Below are positions 146 to 40,759 of a DNA stretch of 40,759 nucleotides, one piece after another; position 1 is the first letter of the stretch, and every line of letters starts with the position of its first letter. Origin of the DNA: a virus; IMG/VR virus record IMGVR_UViG_3300015611_000015, positions 1 through 40,759 of that record; one strand, given 5' to 3'. Below the pieces are notes generated by a model. It searched no databases and was not told where the DNA came from. It saw only the letters and a list, made by a program, of their open reading frames with translations. The position numbers were made by a program, and so were the translations under genes.

Positions 146-1363
146 TTAGAGGGTTTTCATGAGTTCACTGAACTTTTGGGAAGCCTCTTTTTTCATTGCT
201 TTTGTGGTATGCATGTAGACTTGCTTTGTTATCTCATCGTCTTTGTGTCCCAACCTCTCCATGATCTCTGGGAGACTTACCCCTGCCTCGGCAAGTAATG
301 ATGTGTGAGTATGTCTCAGTGAGTGAGGTGTCAGATCCTCATTGAGCTTCGCTAGTTTCAAGAGCCGATACATTCTTCTTTCAATGGTGGGTGTGATTTC
401 TGGATAGCCATGATATCTTTCTTCCCTTGCGAAGATGAAACCATTTTCGTGATATGTCGCCCTGTATTTCATGCGGATAGCATTCTGCCGTATCTTATAT
501 TTACTCATTTCTTCGATTACGAGTTTATCGATTATGATTTTTCGCTTAGACGCTACCGTCTTGGGTGGCGTCAGTTTGTACTTCCTTGCGTTGCCTGTCG
601 GATTATAGTAAGTTTTTATGATGTTTACAGTACCTTCTTCAAAGTCTATATCCTTCCACTTGAGGGCACACATTTCTCCGACTCTCATACCAGAGTACGC
701 CAGGAGGAGAAAGGCGGGGTAATCGCTTCCGAGTCCATCCTCTTTGGCTATTTTCAGGAAGAGCGATAATTCCTCTTTCTCAAGGTACTTGACTATTTCT
801 TCTTCTTCCTCTAATTGCTCGATTGTTTTAATTGTGCTAGGAATGGTTACGTACTGAGTTGGATCGTTCTTTACAACTCCATACTCGATCGCTCGTTTGA
901 AAATCATTCTACCGGTCGCGTTCGCTCCGATGACAGCCGCATTTGAAAGGCCACGGTCCTTAATTGCATTGAGCGCGCCCTGGTATAGTTTACGCGTGAC
1001 GTTCTTTAGTTTAATTTTCGCCAAATTAAGACTAAGCCTTTTAATTTCGAATTTCCTCATCCTAATTGTGCTTTCTTTAACCCTGCCGGAGTTTCCATAA
1101 TTAACGAGCCATTCTTTGGCAAAATCCTCAAAGGTTATATCTGACTCTTGAATAAAGGTCCCTTGATCGAGTTCATGCGTCACGATAGCGGCGGCCAGGG
1201 TAACATCTTTTTTTGTCTTAAACCCGCCCCTTTTTTGCTGCTTACGCTTACCAGTTTTAGGGTCAATACCGATATCAAGGATATAAGACCACGTAGCTCC
1301 GCATTTACACTTTTTGGTTTTATCAGGACACTTACAATTTGGTTTAAAAAAATGTCCCTCCAT
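146..1363 (-). CDS. int: Tyrosine-type site-specific integrase
   Basis: Phage integrase of the tyrosine recombinase family, about 405 residues. It catalyses integration and excision at attP/attB. The N-terminus has a cysteine-containing, arm-binding-like segment (CKCPDK, KCKCG). A SAM-like core-binding domain covers roughly residues 75-170, and the C-terminal catalytic domain shows R227 (SGMRVGE), H347-x-x-R350 (HSLRH), H373 (LGHKDD) and the nucleophile Y383 (VYMH). I start at the ATG at 1363 because AGAGGGGG lies just upstream; a TTG at 1396 would extend it by 11 residues without a better ribosome site. It points away from the early genes and ends near the circular junction, next to paired repeats that could be its arm sites. 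Confidence 0.95.
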   Translation of the reverse strand: MEGHFFKPNCKCPDKTKKCKCGATWSYILDIGIDPKTGKRKQQKRGGFKTKKDVTLAAAIVTHELDQGTFIQESDITFEDFAKEWLVNYGNSGRVKESTIRMRKFEIKRLSLNLAKIKLKNVTRKLYQGALNAIKDRGLSNAAVIGANATGRMIFKRAIEYGVVKNDPTQYVTIPSTIKTIEQLEEEEEIVKYLEKEELSLFLKIAKEDGLGSDYPAFLLLAYSGMRVGEMCALKWKDIDFEEGTVNIIKTYYNPTGNARKYKLTPPKTVASKRKIIIDKLVIEEMSKYKIRQNAIRMKYRATYHENGFIFAREERYHGYPEITPTIERRMYRLLKLAKLNEDLTPHSLRHTHTSLLAEAGVSLPEIMERLGHKDDEITKQVYMHTTKAMKKEASQKFSELMKTL

Positions 1364-1426
1364 GATAAGTAACCCCCTCTTGTTATCTTCTCCCAAAATT
1401 TACGTATGTTACATTACCGTCCTTTA

Positions 1427-4626: not shown

Positions 4627-5391
4627 TTGAATGAGATATATAACTTAGACGCTATAAATTTCATGGAGAATGTATATGAAAATCTTGGGGATGAATCAAT
4701 TAACATGTTTTTGATAGACCTTCCATACACGTTTAAAGGCAAAAATCGAGTTACTGCTAATAAATGGGACTTACCCATAGATGACATGAAGCTATTTGAA
4801 CTAGCGACAAAAATGTTAACTCCTGATGGAGCAATAGCGTTAACTGCAACTAACCCGTTTGCGAGTTACTTGGTCATGAATCACCTAGATATGTTTAAGT
4901 ATGAGTGGATTTGGGAGAAAGATAATGGGAGTAATTTCGTACATGTAAAACACCAGCCATTTAAGGTTCATGAGCAGGTATTGATATTTGGGAAAGGACC
5001 GACAACCTACAACAAGTCTAACAAATACATGAAATATAATCCTCAATTTACATTAGGAAAACCGTACAAAGTAAAAAGGAAAGGCATGACGGAAAACCTA
5101 GCGTCTGGTGAAGGATATGAACGAACAAGCGGAGAGTATGACGGTAAACGATACCCAAGAAGCGTGCAAAAGGTGAACGTTGAAAAGGGTCTTCATCCAA
5201 CACAGAAACCTATTATTCTATTTGAACATTTGATAAACACCTATACAGATAAGGATGATATTGTCGTAGATTGTTGCGCAGGGAGCGGAACAACCGCCCT
5301 AGCGTGCAGGAACACAGGAAGACAATATATTGTGAATGATTTAGATTTTAAATATTCGGAACACATTAAATTGAGGATGGAAGAGGGTTAA
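4627..5391 (+). CDS. Beta-class DNA methyltransferase (orphan)
   Basis: 254-residue N6-adenine/N4-cytosine DNA methyltransferase. The catalytic motif IV appears as DLPY (31-34) instead of the usual DPPY, followed by a recognition region and then motif I CAGSG (217-221) preceded by HPTQKP (190-195). That order is typical of beta-class enzymes. A TTG at 4627 behind GAGG is the best start; the next ATG would cut off the first 12 residues just before the catalytic motif. No restriction endonuclease gene is nearby, so it probably protects phage DNA or marks sites for regulation. Confidence 0.88.
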   Translation: MNEIYNLDAINFMENVYENLGDESINMFLIDLPYTFKGKNRVTANKWDLPIDDMKLFELATKMLTPDGAIALTATNPFASYLVMNHLDMFKYEWIWEKDNGSNFVHVKHQPFKVHEQVLIFGKGPTTYNKSNKYMKYNPQFTLGKPYKVKRKGMTENLASGEGYERTSGEYDGKRYPRSVQKVNVEKGLHPTQKPIILFEHLINTYTDKDDIVVDCCAGSGTTALACRNTGRQYIVNDLDFKYSEHIKLRMEEG

Positions 5392-13558: not shown

Positions 13559-14761
13559 ATGGAAATGAGCGAGGAATTAAAACTCGTTAATATAGACGAA
13601 CTTGTGCCGTATGCAAGGAACGCTCGCACACATAGCCCTGAACAAATCAAGCAGATACAAGCAAGTATTAGGGAGTTTGGCTTTGTTAACCCTGTGTTGA
13701 TCGACGGAAAGTTTAATATCATAGCTGGGCATGGCCGGATATTGGCGGCCAAGGCAGAAGGGCTTAAAGAAGTGCCTTGCGTACTGGTCGAACATCTAAC
13801 CGAGGCACAAAAGAAAGCATACATTCTCGCAGATAATAAACTCGCCTTAAATGCTGGATGGGACATGGAAATGTTAAAGATCGAAATCGAGGAATTAAAG
13901 GGCCTCGACTTTGATATAGGTCTAATTGGTTTCGATAGTGATGAAATAGAGTTAATTTTTCAGCAGGACGAAGAAGTTAATGAGGATGATTTTGACTTAG
14001 ACAAGGCACTTGATGATATTGCCGAACCAATAACAAAACTCGGAGATATTTGGGAGCTTGGAAATCACAGGTTAATGTGCGGAGACAGCACGGATAAGGA
14101 AACCGTTGAAAAATTAATGGGTGGCATGAAGGCGGACCTATATCTGACAGACCCCCCCTACAACGTAAACTATGTCGGCAAGACAAAGGATGCTCTAACA
14201 ATCGAGAACGACTCAATGGCAGACGACGAATTCAGATGTTTCCTGGGAGGTGCGTTTACTGCAGCGGATAACGTCATGAAACAAGGGGCCGTTTTCTATA
14301 TATGGCATGCAGACTCAGAGGGGTATAACTTTAGAGGGGCATGCCATGACATAGGATGGCAAGTGCGCCAGTGCTTGATTTGGAACAAAAACTCCTTAGT
14401 CATGGGCCGACAGGATTATCATTGGAAACACGAGCCTTGCCTTTATGGATGGAAGTCAGGGGCATCCCACTTGTGGGCAACGGATAGAAAGCAAACCACA
14501 ATACTCAACTTCGACAGACCGAGCAAAAGCCCAGACCATCCAACTATGAAGCCAATCCTGCTTTTTGATTATCAAATACAGAACAACACTAAAGGCGAGG
14601 ATATTGTACTCGATACATTCGCGGGGAGCGGGACAACACTGATCGCGTGTGAGCAAAACGGGAGAACAGCATACGTGATGGAATTGGACCCAAAATATGT
14701 CGACGTAATAATAAAACGTTGGGAAGAACTAACGGGGTTGAAAGCAAATTTGGTCAATTAG
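13559..14761 (+). CDS. ParB-N/DNA methyltransferase fusion protein
   Basis: 400-residue two-domain protein. Residues 5-95 are a ParB/Srx-like domain (VNIDELVPYARNAR, PVLIDGK, AGHGRILAA). Residues 160-400 are a beta-class DNA methyltransferase with DPPY (198-201) and FAGSG (354-358) preceded by HPTMKP. This fusion is common in phages and mobile elements. No cognate restriction enzyme is visible. Together with the enzyme at 4.6-5.4 kb the phage encodes two DNA methyltransferases, likely with different specificities. The ATG at 13559 follows GGAAAGGAG. Confidence 0.93.
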   Translation: MEMSEELKLVNIDELVPYARNARTHSPEQIKQIQASIREFGFVNPVLIDGKFNIIAGHGRILAAKAEGLKEVPCVLVEHLTEAQKKAYILADNKLALNAGWDMEMLKIEIEELKGLDFDIGLIGFDSDEIELIFQQDEEVNEDDFDLDKALDDIAEPITKLGDIWELGNHRLMCGDSTDKETVEKLMGGMKADLYLTDPPYNVNYVGKTKDALTIENDSMADDEFRCFLGGAFTAADNVMKQGAVFYIWHADSEGYNFRGACHDIGWQVRQCLIWNKNSLVMGRQDYHWKHEPCLYGWKSGASHLWATDRKQTTILNFDRPSKSPDHPTMKPILLFDYQIQNNTKGEDIVLDTFAGSGTTLIACEQNGRTAYVMELDPKYVDVIIKRWEELTGLKANLVN

Positions 14762-16015: not shown

Positions 16016-16325
16016 ACAGGCAAACAAAATCATAGAGATGGCGCAAAAAAGTGGTGCAGAGCAAAACTTTTTATTTATAACAACATTCAAACGGTACCAG
16101 GTCCAATTAAAAATATTGGGTGACTTAGAAAAAGAGCTTATGGAAAGCGGAACACTTATCACTAAAGAATACGTAAAAGGCAGGGAAAACGTTTACTCCC
16201 ATCCCGCAATTAACGCCTACAACAGGACAGCCGATAGCGCAAACCGCACGGCATCGACTCTCATGAAGGTGATCACATCCCTTAAGGACGTGAGTATGGA
16301 TGTCGAACCAGACGAGGAACTCTAA
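15993..16325 (+). CDS. Terminase small subunit (P27 family)
   Basis: 110-residue P27-type terminase small subunit: a helical protein with TTFKRYQVQLKILGDLEKEL, a SGTLI turn and HPAINAYNRTADSANRTAS, all typical of the family. It recognises phage DNA and recruits the large subunit. Among three close in-frame starts I prefer ATG 15993, five bases after AGGTGA. It overlaps the large subunit gene by 26 bases. Confidence 0.88.
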   Translation: MALIDLNKQANKIIEMAQKSGAEQNFLFITTFKRYQVQLKILGDLEKELMESGTLITKEYVKGRENVYSHPAINAYNRTADSANRTASTLMKVITSLKDVSMDVEPDEEL

Positions 16326-17982
16326 TATAAACCCGCATATCCTTAGGCACATGGAGATGGTAGAAAACGGAGAGATCAATTCCTGCATAGAGCAGCATGA
16401 TTTAATGGCTCACATTCGCAAGTGCTTTGCAACCGAGGATATTTATATCAATGACGAACAACTTGAAAAATATCTAGGGCTTTCCAAGTATTTCCCATAC
16501 GAAAAAATATTTGAGTGGGAAGAATTTGTTTTAGCTTTGCATTGCTGCACATATCGATCTAAAGACGATATGCCACGCTGGCCTGATCTGTTTATGCTCG
16601 TTGGCAGAGGAGCCGGGAAAGATGGGTATATAGCCTATGAGTCTTTTTGCTTGTCGAGCGAACACAACGGAATAAAAAGCTATGACGTTGATATTTGTGC
16701 CAACAATGAGGACCAGGCAATGCGGCCCTTGAAAGATGTTATCGAAGCATTAGAACAGCCCCGCCAGATCTCGAAGATGCGTAAGCATTTTTACTGGAAC
16801 AAAGAAGAGGTAGTCAATTTAAAAACCAAGTCAATCATAAAAGGCCGCACCAATTCTCCAAAAGGAAAAGACGGCCTGAGATCAGGCATAGTTATTTTCA
16901 ACGAGATCCACCAGTACCAGGATTACGAAAACATTAACGTATTCACAACCGGACTAGGGAAAAAGAAACACCCGCGCCGAACATACGCAACCACAAATGG
17001 TGACGTGAGGGACGGCCCCCTGGACGATAAAATAAAAGATTCCCTCGAAATTCTAAAAGGTGATGTGCCAGATAACGGCATGTTACCTTTTATTTGCAGG
17101 TTGGACAGCAAGGAGGAGGTTAACGAACCAACTTGCTGGGAGAAGGCGAACCCGTCATTAAGGCATTTACCAAACCTGCAGGAAGAAGTCTCTAAGGAAT
17201 ATCTGGACTGGAAAGCTAACCCGAATCAGTTTACCGCCTTCATGACCAAGCGCATGAATCTTCCGGAGGGTAATAAGGAGGTAATCGTTGCCGATTGGGA
17301 AAACATTATCGCCACGAATAAGGAAATGCCTGACCTTGCAGGGTGTGATGCTGTAGTCGGGATTGACTATTCAATGCTTAGGGATTTAACAAGTGCGGTT
17401 GTTCACATTAGGAAAGGAAATATGAGATATGACATAGGACATTCATGGCTATGTTTGCAATCAGCCGACATTGCAAGAATGAAAATGCCTTATAGGGAAT
17501 TAGCGAATGAAGGGCTCCTTACTCTTGTGGAGGATGTTGAAATTAATCCTGATCTAATCACAAATTGGATAGCAGAGCAGGGACAGACATACAACATCAA
17601 AAAAATTGCACTTGATAACTTTAGGTATTCGCTCCTTACCGACTCACTTAAAAGCATTGGATTTGATGCAAAAGAAAAGAATGTCTATCTCGTTAGACCA
17701 TCCGACATCATGAAAGTTGTGCCGGTAATTGATAGTTGTTTCATTAATCAGTATTTTATATGGGGCGAAAATCGATTGATGCGGTCAGCGGTAAACAATA
17801 CCAAGCTAATACGATCAAGCCGAAATATAGGAAGCGATACAGGAAATTTCGTATATGGAAAAATTGAGGCCAAGAGCCGGAAAAACGACCCATTTATGGC
17901 CGTAGTGGCGGCGATGACAATAGAAAGCGAACTAAGTAGCGAAGAAGTAGGCGTGCCAGATCTACCGGTATTCACGTATTAA
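16300..17982 (+). CDS. Terminase large subunit
   Basis: 560-residue packaging ATPase/nuclease. The ATPase has Walker A GRGAGKDG (102-109) and a Walker B IVIFNE (197-202), with asparagine in place of the usual aspartate before the catalytic glutamate. The RNase H-like nuclease begins at GIDYS (D356) and ends with KNDPFMA near 540. This is the HK97/phi-SLT type that normally works with P27 small subunits. The portal gene follows 14 bases later. Confidence 0.95.
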   Translation: MSNQTRNSNINPHILRHMEMVENGEINSCIEQHDLMAHIRKCFATEDIYINDEQLEKYLGLSKYFPYEKIFEWEEFVLALHCCTYRSKDDMPRWPDLFMLVGRGAGKDGYIAYESFCLSSEHNGIKSYDVDICANNEDQAMRPLKDVIEALEQPRQISKMRKHFYWNKEEVVNLKTKSIIKGRTNSPKGKDGLRSGIVIFNEIHQYQDYENINVFTTGLGKKKHPRRTYATTNGDVRDGPLDDKIKDSLEILKGDVPDNGMLPFICRLDSKEEVNEPTCWEKANPSLRHLPNLQEEVSKEYLDWKANPNQFTAFMTKRMNLPEGNKEVIVADWENIIATNKEMPDLAGCDAVVGIDYSMLRDLTSAVVHIRKGNMRYDIGHSWLCLQSADIARMKMPYRELANEGLLTLVEDVEINPDLITNWIAEQGQTYNIKKIALDNFRYSLLTDSLKSIGFDAKEKNVYLVRPSDIMKVVPVIDSCFINQYFIWGENRLMRSAVNNTKLIRSSRNIGSDTGNFVYGKIEAKSRKNDPFMAVVAAMTIESELSSEEVGVPDLPVFTY

Positions 17983-34761: not shown

Positions 34762-34788
34762 TCTTAAACTAGAGGAGGAAAATTGATT

Positions 34789-36015
34789 ATGAAAAATCTA
34801 ATGAACAAGTGGAATCAATTGAGCCTCGTGAAACAAATAATTATAGGTTTGATCATTGGAATTATCTTGGCTGTAACGATTCCAGACGTAGCAAAACCGA
34901 TCGCAATTTTTGGTACTTTATTTGTAGGTGCTTTGAAAGCGATTGCGCCTATATTGGTCTTCTTCTTGGTCATGTCGGCCATCTCTCAACACAAGAGTGG
35001 TCATCAAACCAATATGAAATCCATTATCGTTCTTTATCTTTTAGGAACCTTCTTGGCTGGACTCGTGGCGGTTGTTGCAAGCTTTATTTTCCCGGTAACC
35101 TTAACCCTTGCAGCGGGCGCTGAGAATGTGACGCCTCCTGGAGGTGTGGTAGAGGTTCTTAAAGCATTACTGATGAATGTTGTTGATAACCCAGTCAAAG
35201 CACTTTTTAATGCTAACTATATCGGTATATTGTCCTGGGCATTACTTCTTGGCTTTGCTTTAAAAAATGCGGCTGATTCTACAAAATTAATGATTTCTAA
35301 TTTTTCCGATGCAGTCACCTCGATGGTCAGATGGGTCATAAAATTAGCGCCATTAGGCATCATGGGTCTCGTATTTGATGCTATTGCTACCAATGGAATC
35401 GGTGCTTTACTCAGCTATGGACAATTACTAGCCCTTCTGCTTGGTTGCATGGTCTTTGTAGCTCTAGTTGTCAATCCAATCATTGTGTACGTAAATATTC
35501 GTAAAAACCCATACCCACTAGTGTTTAAGTGCTTAAAGGAAAGTGGCATTACAGCTTTCTTTACACGTAGCTCTGCTGCAAACATTCCTGTAAATATGAC
35601 CTTGTGTGAAAATCTAGGGTTAGATAAGGATACGTATTCGGTATCCATTCCATTAGGCGCCACCATTAATATGGCGGGTGCAGCTGTTACCATTTCTGTG
35701 ATGACCCTTGCAGCGGTTCACACGCTTGGTATTCAAGTGGATATAGCGACGGCATTAATCCTCAGTGTATTGTCGGCTGTATGCGCTTGTGGTGCTTCAG
35801 GCGTAGCTGGTGGTTCGCTATTACTGATTCCTCTAGCGTGTAGCTTATTCGGGATCCCCAATGAGATTGCTATGCAGGTCGTTGGTGTAGGCTTTATCGT
35901 AGGTGTTTTACAAGACTCTTGCGAAACGGCACTGAACTCATCCACAGACGTACTTTTCACAGCAACCGCTGAATTCGCTAAGTTGCTTAAAGAAGGAAAA
36001 GAAATCATTATCTAA
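34789..36015 (+). CDS. sstT: Serine/threonine:Na+ symporter (SstT-like)
   Basis: 408-residue dicarboxylate/amino acid:cation symporter family transporter of the SstT type, importing serine or threonine with sodium. Key features are several membrane helices beginning [16 protein letters not shown], the serine-rich re-entrant loop [11 protein letters not shown], the helix motif [11 protein letters not shown] and the second hairpin [14 protein letters not shown]. Full family length, so probably intact. ATG 34789 follows GAGGAGG. It is an uncommon phage cargo and is followed by a very strong terminator. Confidence 0.9.
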
Positions 36016-36099: not shown

Positions 36100-36185
36100 C
36101 TAAGACCACAAAAAAGTTCTGATTTTTTCCCAAGAAGGAAATTATCAGAAACCTTAATATATGAGCGTTTTACTAAAGTCTAAAA

Positions 36186-36237
36186 TGGTGCCTCAGGACG
36201 GAATCGAACCGCCGACACGAGGATTTTCAGTCCTTTA
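36186..36237 (-). pseudogene. 3' fragment of tRNA-Phe (GAA), possible att site
   Basis: On the minus strand the sequence from the anticodon stem through loop CTGAAAATC (anticodon GAA), the variable loop, the T-arm with GGTTCGATTCC and the acceptor strand CTGAGGCACCA matches a bacterial tRNA-Phe 3' half. The matching acceptor 5' strand and D-arm are absent from the neighbourhood, and identity ends in the anticodon stem. That is the usual extent of overlap between a tRNA gene and a phage attP. It is either attP, a remnant of an earlier integration, or a captured host fragment. Confidence 0.75.
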
Positions 36238-36439
36238 AGACCATCAGACTCCCTTTTCCCAACAAAGAGAATTATAAGCGTAGCGATCTAATATGTCAAT
36301 GAATTTGCATTAGTTTGAGGTGATATGGAGATAAGTAAAAACACAATATTTTAATAAAGTGTATTTTAAATGTCTTCATAGGGTGTACATTTCGTTGGAA
36401 TAGTGGTATTTTAAAGGAAATAACTGAACATTTAGGCTT
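36238..36439. other. Gene-free AT-rich stretch
   Basis: No credible ORF, promoter or repeat could be identified here. It separates the tRNA fragment from the hairpin-rich segment. Confidence 0.6.
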
Positions 36440-36600
36440 AACATGTGGCTAGTGTCCCTATAGGAAGGACATTTGACTTCAGATGCTGGGGAAGCTTCAA
36501 CAAAGTTAAGACAGAATTTCGGCTAGTGATAAAAACTGTTTAAGAGGTCTGCCGATATGGCAGACCTCAGTAGCAAGCGGAAGACGCTAACAGGTGGCTT
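36440..36600 (+). other. Hairpin-rich non-coding segment
   Basis: About 160 bases without a credible ORF contain several inverted repeats: TGTCC/GGACA near 36453-36471, GAAGCTTC at 36491, and a 10-bp stem GAGGTCTGCC/GGCAGACCTC at 36544-36568 with a five-base loop GATAT. The octamer GGCTAGTG occurs twice. It could be a structured leader or small RNA. I do not recognise a known riboswitch or RNA family. It lies directly before the ORF at 36601. Confidence 0.4.
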
Positions 36601-37365: not shown

Positions 37366-37397
37366 GCTTGGTTTGCTAATTGGTTATGGGATAGAAG

Positions 37398-37499
37398 TTA
37401 AATTGCGGCCTTATGATTGATTGTAACTTTCAGCCAAGTACCATCAGTTTTTTGATGAACATACAAGGTGTAGGTTCCATCTGCCATTAACACAAGCAT
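37398..37499 (-). CDS. Small ORF coupled to the UroD gene
   Basis: 33-residue ORF (begins MLVLMADGTYTLYVHQKTDG, ends VTINHKAAI) whose ATG is one base after the UroD stop codon and is preceded by AAAGGAAAA. Two beta strands are likely. It may be a real accessory peptide or the head of a truncated protein. No family recognised. Confidence 0.4.
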   Translation of the reverse strand: MLVLMADGTYTLYVHQKTDGTWLKVTINHKAAI

Positions 37500-37500
37500 T

Positions 37501-38481
37501 TCAATATTTTCCTTTACTCATTTTGTCGATTGCTTCACTGGCGCATTCATATACACCGGGGAAGGAACTGAAATTCAAACCTTGAGTTAAATTAGGAATA
37601 AAGTATAATTTCCCGCAATTTTTGCAGGCCCTCTCTACTTCTTTGGCCATGATTTCAGGAGTCCATGCCGGGATATCGACGACGCCGCTGTCGATATCCC
37701 CCATAAAGCTGATTTGGCCGCCGTATTTCTTGATCAGTTCGGGAGTGTTGTTAGTAGTCATAACACCCTGCCAAATATCTACTCCCATTTCAATCATGTA
37801 GGGAACCAGGTTAGCCGCATAGGAATCGCTGTGATGCACGATCAACTCGACACCGTTGGCTTTGTAGAATCCATAGATTTTCTTATAAGCTGGTAAATAG
37901 AACTCTTCAAACATTGCCGGTGAAATGAAGGAAGATTTTTGGCTGCCCCAGTCGTCATGATGGAAAAGTGCATCCGGATGCAGACGATCGATCAGAATTC
38001 TCGCATAGCTTATCTCAGCTTCCGTAAGATAATCAATAAGCTCATGCATTGCTTCAGGTTCTTCACAGAGAGCCATTAATGCATCTTCCATACTCATAAG
38101 GTGATGACACATTTCAAAGACACCAGGTAGAGCTATCGCAGTTACAAATTGTTCAGTGCGATTGATTGAATTAGCATGCGCGATAGCTGCAGCCCATGCC
38201 TCATCAGAATTATCAATTACAGGCGCTTTCACGTATTTTTTCCAATCTGTAATATCCTTTAATACTTTGTGTTCTTCGTCATGTACAGGGAACTGACCAA
38301 GCTGACCTTCTGGCCATCTGAAGGTAATTCCCCAATTATTTTTGAACTCCTTACCGGGGTCGCACATAAGCTTGACTGGAACTTCTAGTATTATGTCCAT
38401 AAATTCGTACTGATTTACAAATCGATCTGGATTACCACCTTTGATCGTTTCCATTAAATTTTGCCTCTTCGTTAACATCAT
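37501..38481 (-). CDS. UroD-family corrinoid methyltransferase (MtaA-like)
   Basis: 326-residue protein of the uroporphyrinogen decarboxylase fold in the branch of cobalamin methyltransferases (MtaA/CmuA-like). Visible elements are a QYEFMDI start, HHDDWGSQ (174-181), ELIVHHSDSYAANLVPYM (213-229), then MGDIDSG. Members transfer a methyl group between a methyl-corrinoid protein and a second acceptor, or act directly on a methyl donor. The classical zinc motif HxC is replaced here by HHSDS, so chemistry may differ. It follows the corrinoid protein gene by 55 bases, with AGGAGG before the ATG. Confidence 0.8.
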   Translation of the reverse strand: MMLTKRQNLMETIKGGNPDRFVNQYEFMDIILEVPVKLMCDPGKEFKNNWGITFRWPEGQLGQFPVHDEEHKVLKDITDWKKYVKAPVIDNSDEAWAAAIAHANSINRTEQFVTAIALPGVFEMCHHLMSMEDALMALCEEPEAMHELIDYLTEAEISYARILIDRLHPDALFHHDDWGSQKSSFISPAMFEEFYLPAYKKIYGFYKANGVELIVHHSDSYAANLVPYMIEMGVDIWQGVMTTNNTPELIKKYGGQISFMGDIDSGVVDIPAWTPEIMAKEVERACKNCGKLYFIPNLTQGLNFSSFPGVYECASEAIDKMSKGKY

Positions 38482-38536
38482 TTATGGCCTCCTTTTATTT
38501 AGTTCTAAGTTTTTAAGCACTAAACCAATCTGGCGA

Positions 38537-39169
38537 TTAAGCGCTTACCAATTCTTTAGCTTTTACTGCGGCACTCCCCGCATCAGGAGCAAAACCGTCT
38601 GCTCCGATTTCATCCGCCATCTCTTGGGATACAGGCGCACCACCGACAATGATCTTGAACCCTGTTAATCCGCTCGCTTTAAGCGCTTGAACGGTTTCCT
38701 TCATTGACGGCAAGGTTGTCGTAAGAAGCCCTGAGCATGCCACTATGGTTACATTTTCATGTTCTTTAATGGCCTTAATAAATTTTTCTGTAGAAATATC
38801 TACGCCAAGGTCTACCACTTTAAATCCAGCACTTTCGATCATCATGGCAACGAGATTTTTGCCGATGTCATGAAGATCGCCTTGAACTGTACCGATAATG
38901 CATGTGCCTAAATAAGAAGTACTGGTCTCTGTGAGAAGAGGTTTGAGTACATCAACGCCCTTGGACATAGCTTTAGCGGCCATCAGCATTTCAGGTACGA
39001 AAACCTCTCCTACAGAGAATTTGTCTCCTACGACACCCATAGATTCGACCATACCCTGGAGAATATCTCCCGCTGCGTTTCCTTCATCAAGTGCTTCCTG
39101 CACTAAACCCGGGACGAGTTTAGCTTTACCTGCCTCTACCATAGCTTTTACTTCTGCGATCTTTGTCAT
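38537..39169 (-). CDS. Corrinoid (B12-binding) methyltransfer protein
   Basis: About 210-residue two-domain corrinoid protein. The N-terminal helical cap (about 1-85, VQEALDEGNAAGDILQGMVE, EVFVPEMLMAAKAMSKG) is followed by the B12-binding Rossmann domain with D98-x-H100-x-x-G103 (GDLHDIGKN), where His is the lower cobalt ligand, then SGLLTTTLPSM and a GGAPV turn. It is the methyl carrier in MtaC/MtbC-type systems. No substrate-specific methyltransferase of the MtaB/MttB type is present. The ATG at 39169 is preceded by GGAGG. Confidence 0.9.
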   Translation of the reverse strand: MTKIAEVKAMVEAGKAKLVPGLVQEALDEGNAAGDILQGMVESMGVVGDKFSVGEVFVPEMLMAAKAMSKGVDVLKPLLTETSTSYLGTCIIGTVQGDLHDIGKNLVAMMIESAGFKVVDLGVDISTEKFIKAIKEHENVTIVACSGLLTTTLPSMKETVQALKASGLTGFKIIVGGAPVSQEMADEIGADGFAPDAGSAAVKAKELVSA

Positions 39170-39231
39170 TTTCAATTCCTCCTAGTGCTTATGTTTTTTA
39201 TTTTTTGATCAATTTTGTCTTCCCAATATCC

Positions 39232-39288
39232 TCAGATGATACCGAAGATACCTGCGACTAGAGAAATGATTCCACCTGCTTTTTTCAT
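39232..39288 (-). pseudogene. Truncated small membrane-type gene
   Basis: Behind AAGGAGAGA an ATG starts MKKAGGIISLVAGIFGII, which looks like the first membrane segment of a small conserved protein (compare MKKAGGIIALIAGIFG starts), but an in-frame TGA follows after 18 codons. Reading on would give GYWEDKIDQKIKNIS until the next stop at 39172-39174, just before the corrinoid gene. It is probably a broken gene, or an 18-residue peptide. Confidence 0.5.
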
Positions 39289-39309
39289 TTCAAATCTCTC
39301 CTTCTAATT

Positions 39310-39870
39310 TTATTTAATACTTTCAACCTTTATAGTGTAACCTAACATTTCTCCAACATCAGTTATGGTTCCCGTTACGGTAAGTTTCTGCTTACTCGTA
39401 AATTTTGATACAGTAGCTTTTTGTTCCTGAGTAATGTTACACAAAATAGTAGTAAAGGAAAGATCGTCGTTCATGGGAGCAATCGAAAAATATTTCCCAT
39501 TGCTGTCGATGCTTGATAATTGACCAGTCACTTCAACGTATTTACCCTTATAAGCTTCACTGGCATTTAATGCGTTGCCCTTCAAGTCTTCAACAAGTTT
39601 ATCCGCTGTTACCACCACGGGGGCTGCTTTCGGCTGTTGCGTGGCGACGCTCGATGCAGCTGGCGCCGTAGTTATTGCTGGTGCTTGAGCAGGGCTAGAT
39701 TCCCCCCCACTACCCATAGCCGATCCGATACCACCAATAATAACGAGTGCGAGTATGCCAGTTATTATTTTGTGTCTGCTAAAAAAGTTCCTCTGATCAG
39801 TTCCACAATGGACACATTTCTTTACACCTTTACCGATCTCCTTACCACAAGATTTACAATTTGCTAACAT
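39310..39870 (-). CDS. Zinc-ribbon membrane protein with OB-fold domain
   Basis: 186-residue protein. The N-terminal zinc ribbon (ANCKSCGKEI, CVHCGTDQR) is cytoplasmic. One membrane helix follows (about 35-50, IITGILALVIIGGIGSAMG), then an alanine/proline linker. The extracellular C-terminal domain (about 85-186) is like tRNA_anti-like/OB-fold proteins: YKGKYVEVTGQLSSID, FTTILCNITQEQ, KLTVTGTITDVGEMLGY. It probably binds a small molecule or peptide at the surface. Typical of Firmicutes chromosomes rather than phages. Confidence 0.75.
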   Translation of the reverse strand: MLANCKSCGKEIGKGVKKCVHCGTDQRNFFSRHKIITGILALVIIGGIGSAMGSGGESSPAQAPAITTAPAASSVATQQPKAAPVVVTADKLVEDLKGNALNASEAYKGKYVEVTGQLSSIDSNGKYFSIAPMNDDLSFTTILCNITQEQKATVSKFTSKQKLTVTGTITDVGEMLGYTIKVESIK

Positions 39871-40409: not shown

Positions 40410-40660
40410 TCATTCAAGTCCTCTCATAATTTGCTAAAACAGTTATTCAGTTCTATGCACTATGGGGTTTTTCCTGCTATGAGATAATATTAATTATTCT
40501 AAGCATACCCGTTTGGGTAACATTTAGGTAACGTAATCAGAATAAAGGGGATGAAACAAGCTAAAGATGTTACAATGATAAAAAGGAGAAACCCTTACTG
40601 TACACTCCCTGTGATACATAAACTAAGATATTACAGCATAAATTTCTTAATAAGAGTTAC
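40410..40660. other. Non-coding region before the circular junction
   Basis: No convincing ORF. It contains the 11-bp-period GGTAAC pair, scattered GTTAC motifs on the other strand (40569-40573 and 40656-40660) and an imperfect inverted repeat around TGTACACTCCC-TGTGATACA (40599-40618). Because it continues across the circular junction to the integrase gene, it is a good candidate for the attP region. Confidence 0.5.
40516..40533 (+). repeat. Paired GGTAAC repeats, candidate integrase arm sites
   Basis: GGTAAC at 40516-40521 and GGTAACG at 40527-40533 repeat with the same 11-bp period as the pair at 83-100 (equivalent to 40743-40760 on the circle). The two pairs are 227 bp apart and flank a non-coding stretch beside the integrase, as arm sites flank a phage att core. 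Confidence 0.45.
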
Positions 40661-40759
40661 TTATGATATAACAGAATATGAAATTGATAAACGTCTAGTA
40701 CCAAGGGCTGAGAGGCTTAATGGTTACCGTAAAATGCCTAAAAGTAACGAAAAGGTAAC
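40661..40759. repeat. Terminal direct repeat, copy 2 (circular overlap)
   Basis: Exact copy of bases 1-99, ending at the window edge. It indicates a circular molecule of 40,660 bp. A length of 99 is a common k-mer size in assemblers, which supports an assembly overlap rather than a biological repeat. Confidence 0.95.

Follow-up and report, generated by a model that had tools for sequence, protein, structure and literature searches.

Why would a bacterial virus carry genes for a cobalamin-dependent methyl transfer, and do the two such genes found side by side in virus record IMGVR_UViG_3300015611_000015 belong to the virus at all? The window analysed here is the whole of that record (40,759 bases). 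Host metabolic genes on phages are well documented in photosynthesis and in carbon, sulfur and nucleotide metabolism. We assign a probability of about 0.62 to the reading that two genes of a three-component corrinoid methyltransferase system of the O-demethylase type were captured as a module and are carried by a temperate siphophage of Desulfosporosinus.

Phage genome and host

The ends of the window are identical over 99 bp, as expected for a circular assembly, here of ~40.66 kb. The features first needed are as follows.

1-99, no strand: first copy of an exact 99-bp terminal direct repeat
146-1396, minus strand: tyrosine integrase (phrog_1, 8.9e-79; 63% identity in D. acididurans)
16300-17982, plus strand: terminase large subunit (phrog_9, 3e-104; 71% identity to a D. 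nitroreducens prophage)
37501-38481, minus strand: UroD-superfamily methyltransferase of 326 aa, probable MT I (substrate:corrinoid protein methyltransferase; Pfam URO-D, 2.3e-17)
38537-39175, minus strand: corrinoid (B12-carrying) protein, 212 aa from a TTG start, with an ATG start at 39169 (B12-binding, 4.8e-25; B12-binding_2, 6.6e-15)
39310-39870, minus strand: superinfection-exclusion-like (Sie-like) protein with a zinc ribbon and a tRNA_anti-like part (phrog_8545, 1.4e-15; 70% identity in viral contig L142)
39957-40409, minus strand: small lipoprotein (phrog_9170, 1.4e-22)
40661-40759, no strand: second copy of the repeat, identical to the first

Besides the integrase and terminase, the contig encodes an anti-repressor, portal, head protease, major head protein, tape measure, Dit, tail protein and endolysin, and by this gene content it is the genome of a temperate tailed phage, a temperate siphophage. 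According to the preliminary description, a phage here carries two parts of a cobalamin-dependent methyl-transfer system. Both elements of that statement hold: the URO-D, B12-binding and B12-binding_2 domains are recognized in the two products, and the phage gene set surrounds the pair on the repeat-ended contig. The pair lies between the lysis genes and the integrase, in a head-to-tail row on the minus strand that begins with the lipoprotein and continues through the Sie-like protein and the corrinoid protein to the UroD protein. The first two of these, on the integrase side, belong to phage families, and the pair thus has phage genes on both flanks within a closed phage genome, as is required of an auxiliary metabolic gene.

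The terminase large subunit was used for placing the phage. Relatives of both terminase and integrase are held by Desulfosporosinus prophages, which identifies the host, at the level of these comparisons, as this genus of sulfate-reducing bacteria. Because the pair also nests within the genus (below), the host of the phage and the source of the genes agree.

Host origin of the two genes

Amino acid identity to proteins encoded on Desulfosporosinus chromosomes reaches 92% for the UroD protein and is 87–90% for the corrinoid protein. Trees of both proteins, a check that the preliminary description had proposed, place each inside Desulfosporosinus, alongside D. metallidurans, D. nitroreducens, D. 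lacus and D. hippei, so that by phylogeny both genes are of host origin. In 18 of the host loci examined, the operon order is MT II, corrinoid protein, UroD protein. The host MT II (267 aa) belongs to the pterin-binding methyltransferase family (Pfam/NCBIfam) and scores 373 bits against the methyltetrahydrofolate:corrinoid methyltransferase model (cut-off 259). Most Desulfosporosinus operons also have a divergent PucR/CdaR-type regulator before MT II and a DUF2284 gene after UroD. The phage matches these operons (L003, L007, L041 and others) in its 87–92% identical proteins, gene order and intergenic DNA, but has only the middle two genes, whereas the hosts have MT II, the regulator and the DUF2284 gene as well. 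In at least four host loci whose upstream flanks are long (L015, L016, L018 and L019), the pair occurs with no MT II recognized nearby, which indicates that the pair can plausibly work with an MT II supplied in trans.

Classification of the two proteins

Both open reading frames are free of internal stops, each has a Shine-Dalgarno-like sequence just 5' of it, and all family-invariant residues are retained in both phage proteins. Superfamily membership of the UroD protein is clear (63.5 bits against Pfam URO-D, gathering score 23.9), and its AF2 model (pLDDT 93) has the UroD TIM-barrel fold, matching both uroporphyrinogen decarboxylases and a methyltransferase of Methanosarcina mazei (4ay7, the top PDB match) with a probability of 1.00. 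It is not HemE by the TIGR01464 test (23.6 bits, cut-off 302.95). The MtaA/CmuA models match it at 1e-11 to 1e-12, and its scores fall short of the cut-offs of the MtaA/CmuA/MtbA models (TIGR01463, 44.1 against 235.4 bits; NF040654, 32 against 400; NF041608, 23.3 against 600).

The corrinoid protein contains both expected domains and the DxHxxG cobalamin motif, in the form GDLHDIG that is invariant in its family. It likewise stays below the NCBIfam cut-offs for named types (MtgC, 185.4 against 370 bits; MtbC, 163.5 against 350; pyl_corrinoid, 163.8 against 215.3), and its nearest PDB entries are 1y80, a predicted cobalamin binding protein (2e-50), and 4jgi (1.7e-37). A PDB profile search with the family alignment gave no match at E < 0.001.

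The UroD protein had been described as lacking the HxC zinc pattern, with HHSDS in its place. HHSDS is indeed present (residues 216–220), yet it is no anomaly: none of H216, H217 and D219 varies among 54 close relatives, which makes the motif a family trait. The zinc motif E-x14-E-x20-H occurs once in the phage protein (E132-E147-H168); it was set aside, as H168 is variable (30 H and 23 K in 56 alignment rows) and no literature source for the motif was found. In O-type members, one or both zinc cysteines of the S-type His-Cys-Cys site are replaced by carboxylates or other residues (PMC10418091), and zinc is neither needed in Cdm nor present in the Moorella enzyme (PMC13222342).

Comparison with O-demethylases

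An O-demethylase system comprises MT-I, a corrinoid protein, MT-II and an activating enzyme, with specificity set by MT-I (PMC12915777), and the O-demethylase MT I proteins MtvB, OdmB, VdmB and MtoB lie in the UroD superfamily (PMC13222342, PMC8630106). It had been claimed that the usual substrate methyltransferase is missing from the phage. This finds no support: in acetogen-type O-demethylases the UroD protein is itself the substrate-specific MT I (PMC13222342, PMC8630106, PMC12915777). What the phage lacks is MT II, of which there is a 3' stub upstream of the pair, and the reductive activase, none being recognized among the phage genes; the expectation that the pair would need host partners is therefore upheld.

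The closest functional parallels are the three-component O-demethylases of acetogens (MtvABC of Moorella thermoacetica, Odm/Vdm of Acetobacterium dehalogenans) and the O-demethylase of Desulfitobacterium hafniense, which like the phage pair combine a UroD-superfamily MT I with a separate corrinoid protein (PMC13222342, PMC8630106, PMC12915777). MT I and corrinoid protein are encoded together on the phage, as in these systems, and the tree of UroD relatives includes acetogens. In the host operons the two genes stand beside a pterin-binding MT II, the full acetogen O-demethylase layout with MT II in the same cluster; in the phage, by contrast, MT II has decayed to a stub, no activase is recognized and the substrate is putative. 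The chloromethane dehalogenase CdmBCA of Acetobacterium dehalogenans shares the three-part layout and the UroD-superfamily MT I (PMC13222342) but is specific for haloalkanes, and the phage protein is likened to it by layout and superfamily.

The best reading of these comparisons is that the pair represents the MT I and carrier protein of an O-demethylase-type system that would depend on MT II and activase of the host; a methoxy-aromatic or other substrate class is one that we infer. Against this reading stand the sub-cut-off MtaA/CmuA scores, the haloalkane-using relatives in the same superfamily and the fact that only one phage is known to carry the pair. A further point against it comes from a paper that did not test O-demethylation, according to which no degradation of aromatics had been reported for Desulfosporosinus up to 2015 (PMC4585845).

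Junctions and age of the capture

DNA similarity between phage and host operons begins in the last UroD codons (37498-37512), runs past the start of the corrinoid gene and reaches the 3' end of MT II (~39233-39238). Three features mark the edges.

37395-37500, minus strand: C-terminal remnant of another open reading frame, ...LMADGTYTLYVHQKTDGTWLKVTINHKAAI-stop, at the downstream junction, where host homology ends (37498-37512)
39190-39238, minus strand: decayed 3' stub of the MT II gene (methyltetrahydrofolate:corrinoid methyltransferase), recognized by DNA homology to host operons
39233-39290, minus strand: truncated small open reading frame, MKKAGGIISLVAGIFGII-stop, recipient sequence at the upstream junction beyond the MT II stub

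Where MT II of the closest host species ends in I-G-A-Y-R-E-D-K-F-G-Q-K-K-stop, the phage reads I-stop-G-Y-W-E-D-K-I-D-Q-K, with an in-frame stop. Over 11 codons the stub differs by five substitutions that alter the amino acid, where the rate of the two intact genes would predict ~0.8 (P ~0.002; P ~0.03 with only the nine safest codons). Together, the decayed stub and the open reading frame remnants at the junctions point to a capture that was imprecise and happened long enough ago for useless flanks to decay. The capture is thus probably old and not an assembly join. Among related viral contigs (L119-L146) no clean empty insertion site was found; L142-L144 share the Sie-like gene and not the junction genes.

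Selection on the captured genes

Counting only sites at which two host species agree, we find 27 nonsynonymous and 42 synonymous changes on the phage branch across the two genes, against a neutral expectation of ~51–54 nonsynonymous (P < 1e-8). The omega of this branch is 0.17–0.23 for the two genes together, whereas the host branches give ~0.07–0.14 (three-point differences). By these counts, the two genes have evolved under purifying selection, and constraint on the phage branch is somewhat relaxed but clear. This branch also covers evolution in the host prior to the capture, and part of the constraint may be that old. The case for selection on the phage itself combines the omega of ~0.2 with the decayed MT II stub, from a single phage and a short stub, and suggests that the captured pair is probably functional.

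Other host-derived DNA in the same region

The lysis-to-integrase region contains a second piece of host-derived cargo.

34783-36015, plus strand: SstT serine/threonine transporter (NCBIfam SstT, 660 bits, cut-off 308)

SstT is 92% identical at the amino acid level to proteins of Desulfosporosinus chromosomes (dN/dS ~0.10), whereas its nearest relatives on viral contigs are just 60–65% identical. Downstream, at 36176-36299, a perfect sigma-70-type promoter segment is fused to the 3' half of a host tRNA-Phe (50 bp identical across the family). Each of these two segments also occurs separately near tRNA-Phe in Desulfosporosinus chromosomes, and the chimera is possibly an old attachment site. A tRNA-like match at 36186-36269 was rejected as a gene, being part of this chimera with the tRNA-Phe 3' half. 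Two further short segments (36323-36569) are fused and lie downstream of sstT in the phage, with counterparts upstream of sstT in Desulfosporosinus chromosomes, 2.2 kb apart in L111. SstT, the tRNA-Phe 3' half and these segments show that host DNA accumulates between the lysis genes and the integrase, a finding that supports both the cargo reading of the pair and the passenger one.

Role of the pair and competing explanations

The strongest competitor, which we consider improbable without dismissing it, is that the pair is passenger DNA, a fragment of host chromosome acquired by chance through faulty excision or illegitimate recombination, functionless for the phage and soon to be lost. It would account for the pair being known from one phage only, for the second, unrelated host piece adjoining it (SstT, the tRNA-Phe 3' half and the small host segments), for the two rubble-like gene fragments at the junctions and for a phage-branch omega of UroD (~0.2) that exceeds the host-branch value roughly two- to threefold. 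What it explains poorly is that the MT II stub decayed near-neutrally while both neighbouring reading frames remained open and constrained. Neutrally evolving genes would require a capture within about the last tenth of the branch, and this is contradicted by the divergence of the stub (11 codons only).

Much less probable is a role within the infection, in which the pair would furnish methyl groups for methyl-tetrahydrofolate (for nucleotide or methionine supply, or for DNA methylation by phage methyltransferases) rather than for growth of the lysogen. Many phage auxiliary metabolic genes serve one-carbon or nucleotide supply, and from reading the translations the phage encodes two DNA methyltransferase-like proteins (4627-5391 and 13559-14761). 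However, the pair lies in a reverse-strand block beside the integrase, apart from the plus-strand early and late genes, and the adjoining Sie-like gene points to expression from the prophage.

Misassembly, the wrongful joining of host chromosome to a phage contig, we regard as the least probable of the three: several host-like segments do lie within 34.7–39.2 kb, but the contig is joined into a circle by its exact 99-bp end repeat, leaving the pair flanked by phage genes in both directions, and an assembly error would yield host sequence matching the operon at the junction instead of a decayed MT II stub.

Lysogenic conversion is thus the preferred role, the pair being most likely a module that extends the methyl-donor range of the host and probably enables the infected cell to demethylate methoxylated compounds of plant origin. 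The pair would be transcribed from the prophage along with the lipoprotein and Sie-like genes, host MT II would transfer the methyl group to tetrahydrofolate, and host activase would re-reduce the cobalt. The lysogen would in this way acquire an extra or changed methyl-donor specificity that feeds the methyl branch of the Wood-Ljungdahl pathway. As a broader and only tentative proposal, temperate phages of anaerobes might move methyl-donor specificity modules (MT I plus its corrinoid protein) between hosts, such that lysogeny changes which methoxylated compounds are usable; a phage would then need only the substrate-specific half, since MT II and activase are generic and host-encoded.

Distribution among viruses

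That the pair would be exceptional on a phage, as first suggested, is borne out by the viral database searches proposed at the time, in which no other genuine phage with the pair was found. No full relative of the pair turned up in 2.9 million viral contigs, in scans, based on short conserved peptides, that distant relatives could escape. In IMG/VR, a direct search returned no relative of either gene, and a family-profile search returned no UroD relative and a single corrinoid match, partial and located at the end of a contig (L118), which was set aside. The predicted viral structure library held no convincing match, and a literature search found no phage-borne corrinoid methyltransferase. Corrinoid matches in INPHARED were unverified fecal scaffolds and methionine synthase genes. 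Its sole UroD match, MT838495, which was also hit in the corrinoid search, was rejected as a phage precedent: it carries a UroD–corrinoid fusion by an activase-like gene, has no recognizable phage gene and looks like mislabelled bacterial DNA. The fusion (583 aa; 1516-3267 of L149, MT838495.1) adjoins the activase-like gene in a setting that resembles gut bacterial DNA.

With auxiliary metabolic and lysogenic conversion genes of other phages, the pair shares its nature as host metabolic genes in the accessory region of a temperate phage; it differs in that the collections searched hold no such corrinoid carrier or UroD-type methyltransferase on a genuine phage. If the pair works, the phage would control how methyl groups of lignin-derived compounds enter the Wood-Ljungdahl pathway in sulfate reducers, and would exhibit the portable half of a modular system. 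Retention of MT I and carrier with loss of MT II amounts to a testable prediction on how such systems split.

Attachment sites

A 97-bp non-coding stretch near the integrase (40560-40656; 84% match to genome G030) is a candidate attachment region. The 3' end of groEL directly follows relatives of the phage integrase in L102 (13650-14200) and L109 (9950-10400), and the integrase group of this phage appears to target groEL; a search of the phage for the groEL 3'-end attachment site that related integrases use was negative. In D. metallidurans, a C-terminal integrase remnant and a groEL-end fragment (L003 1346-1607, equal to L108 18889-19150) lie a few kb from that species' own MT II–corrinoid–UroD operon; a related prophage may once have resided near such an operon there, which would provide a possible route of capture.
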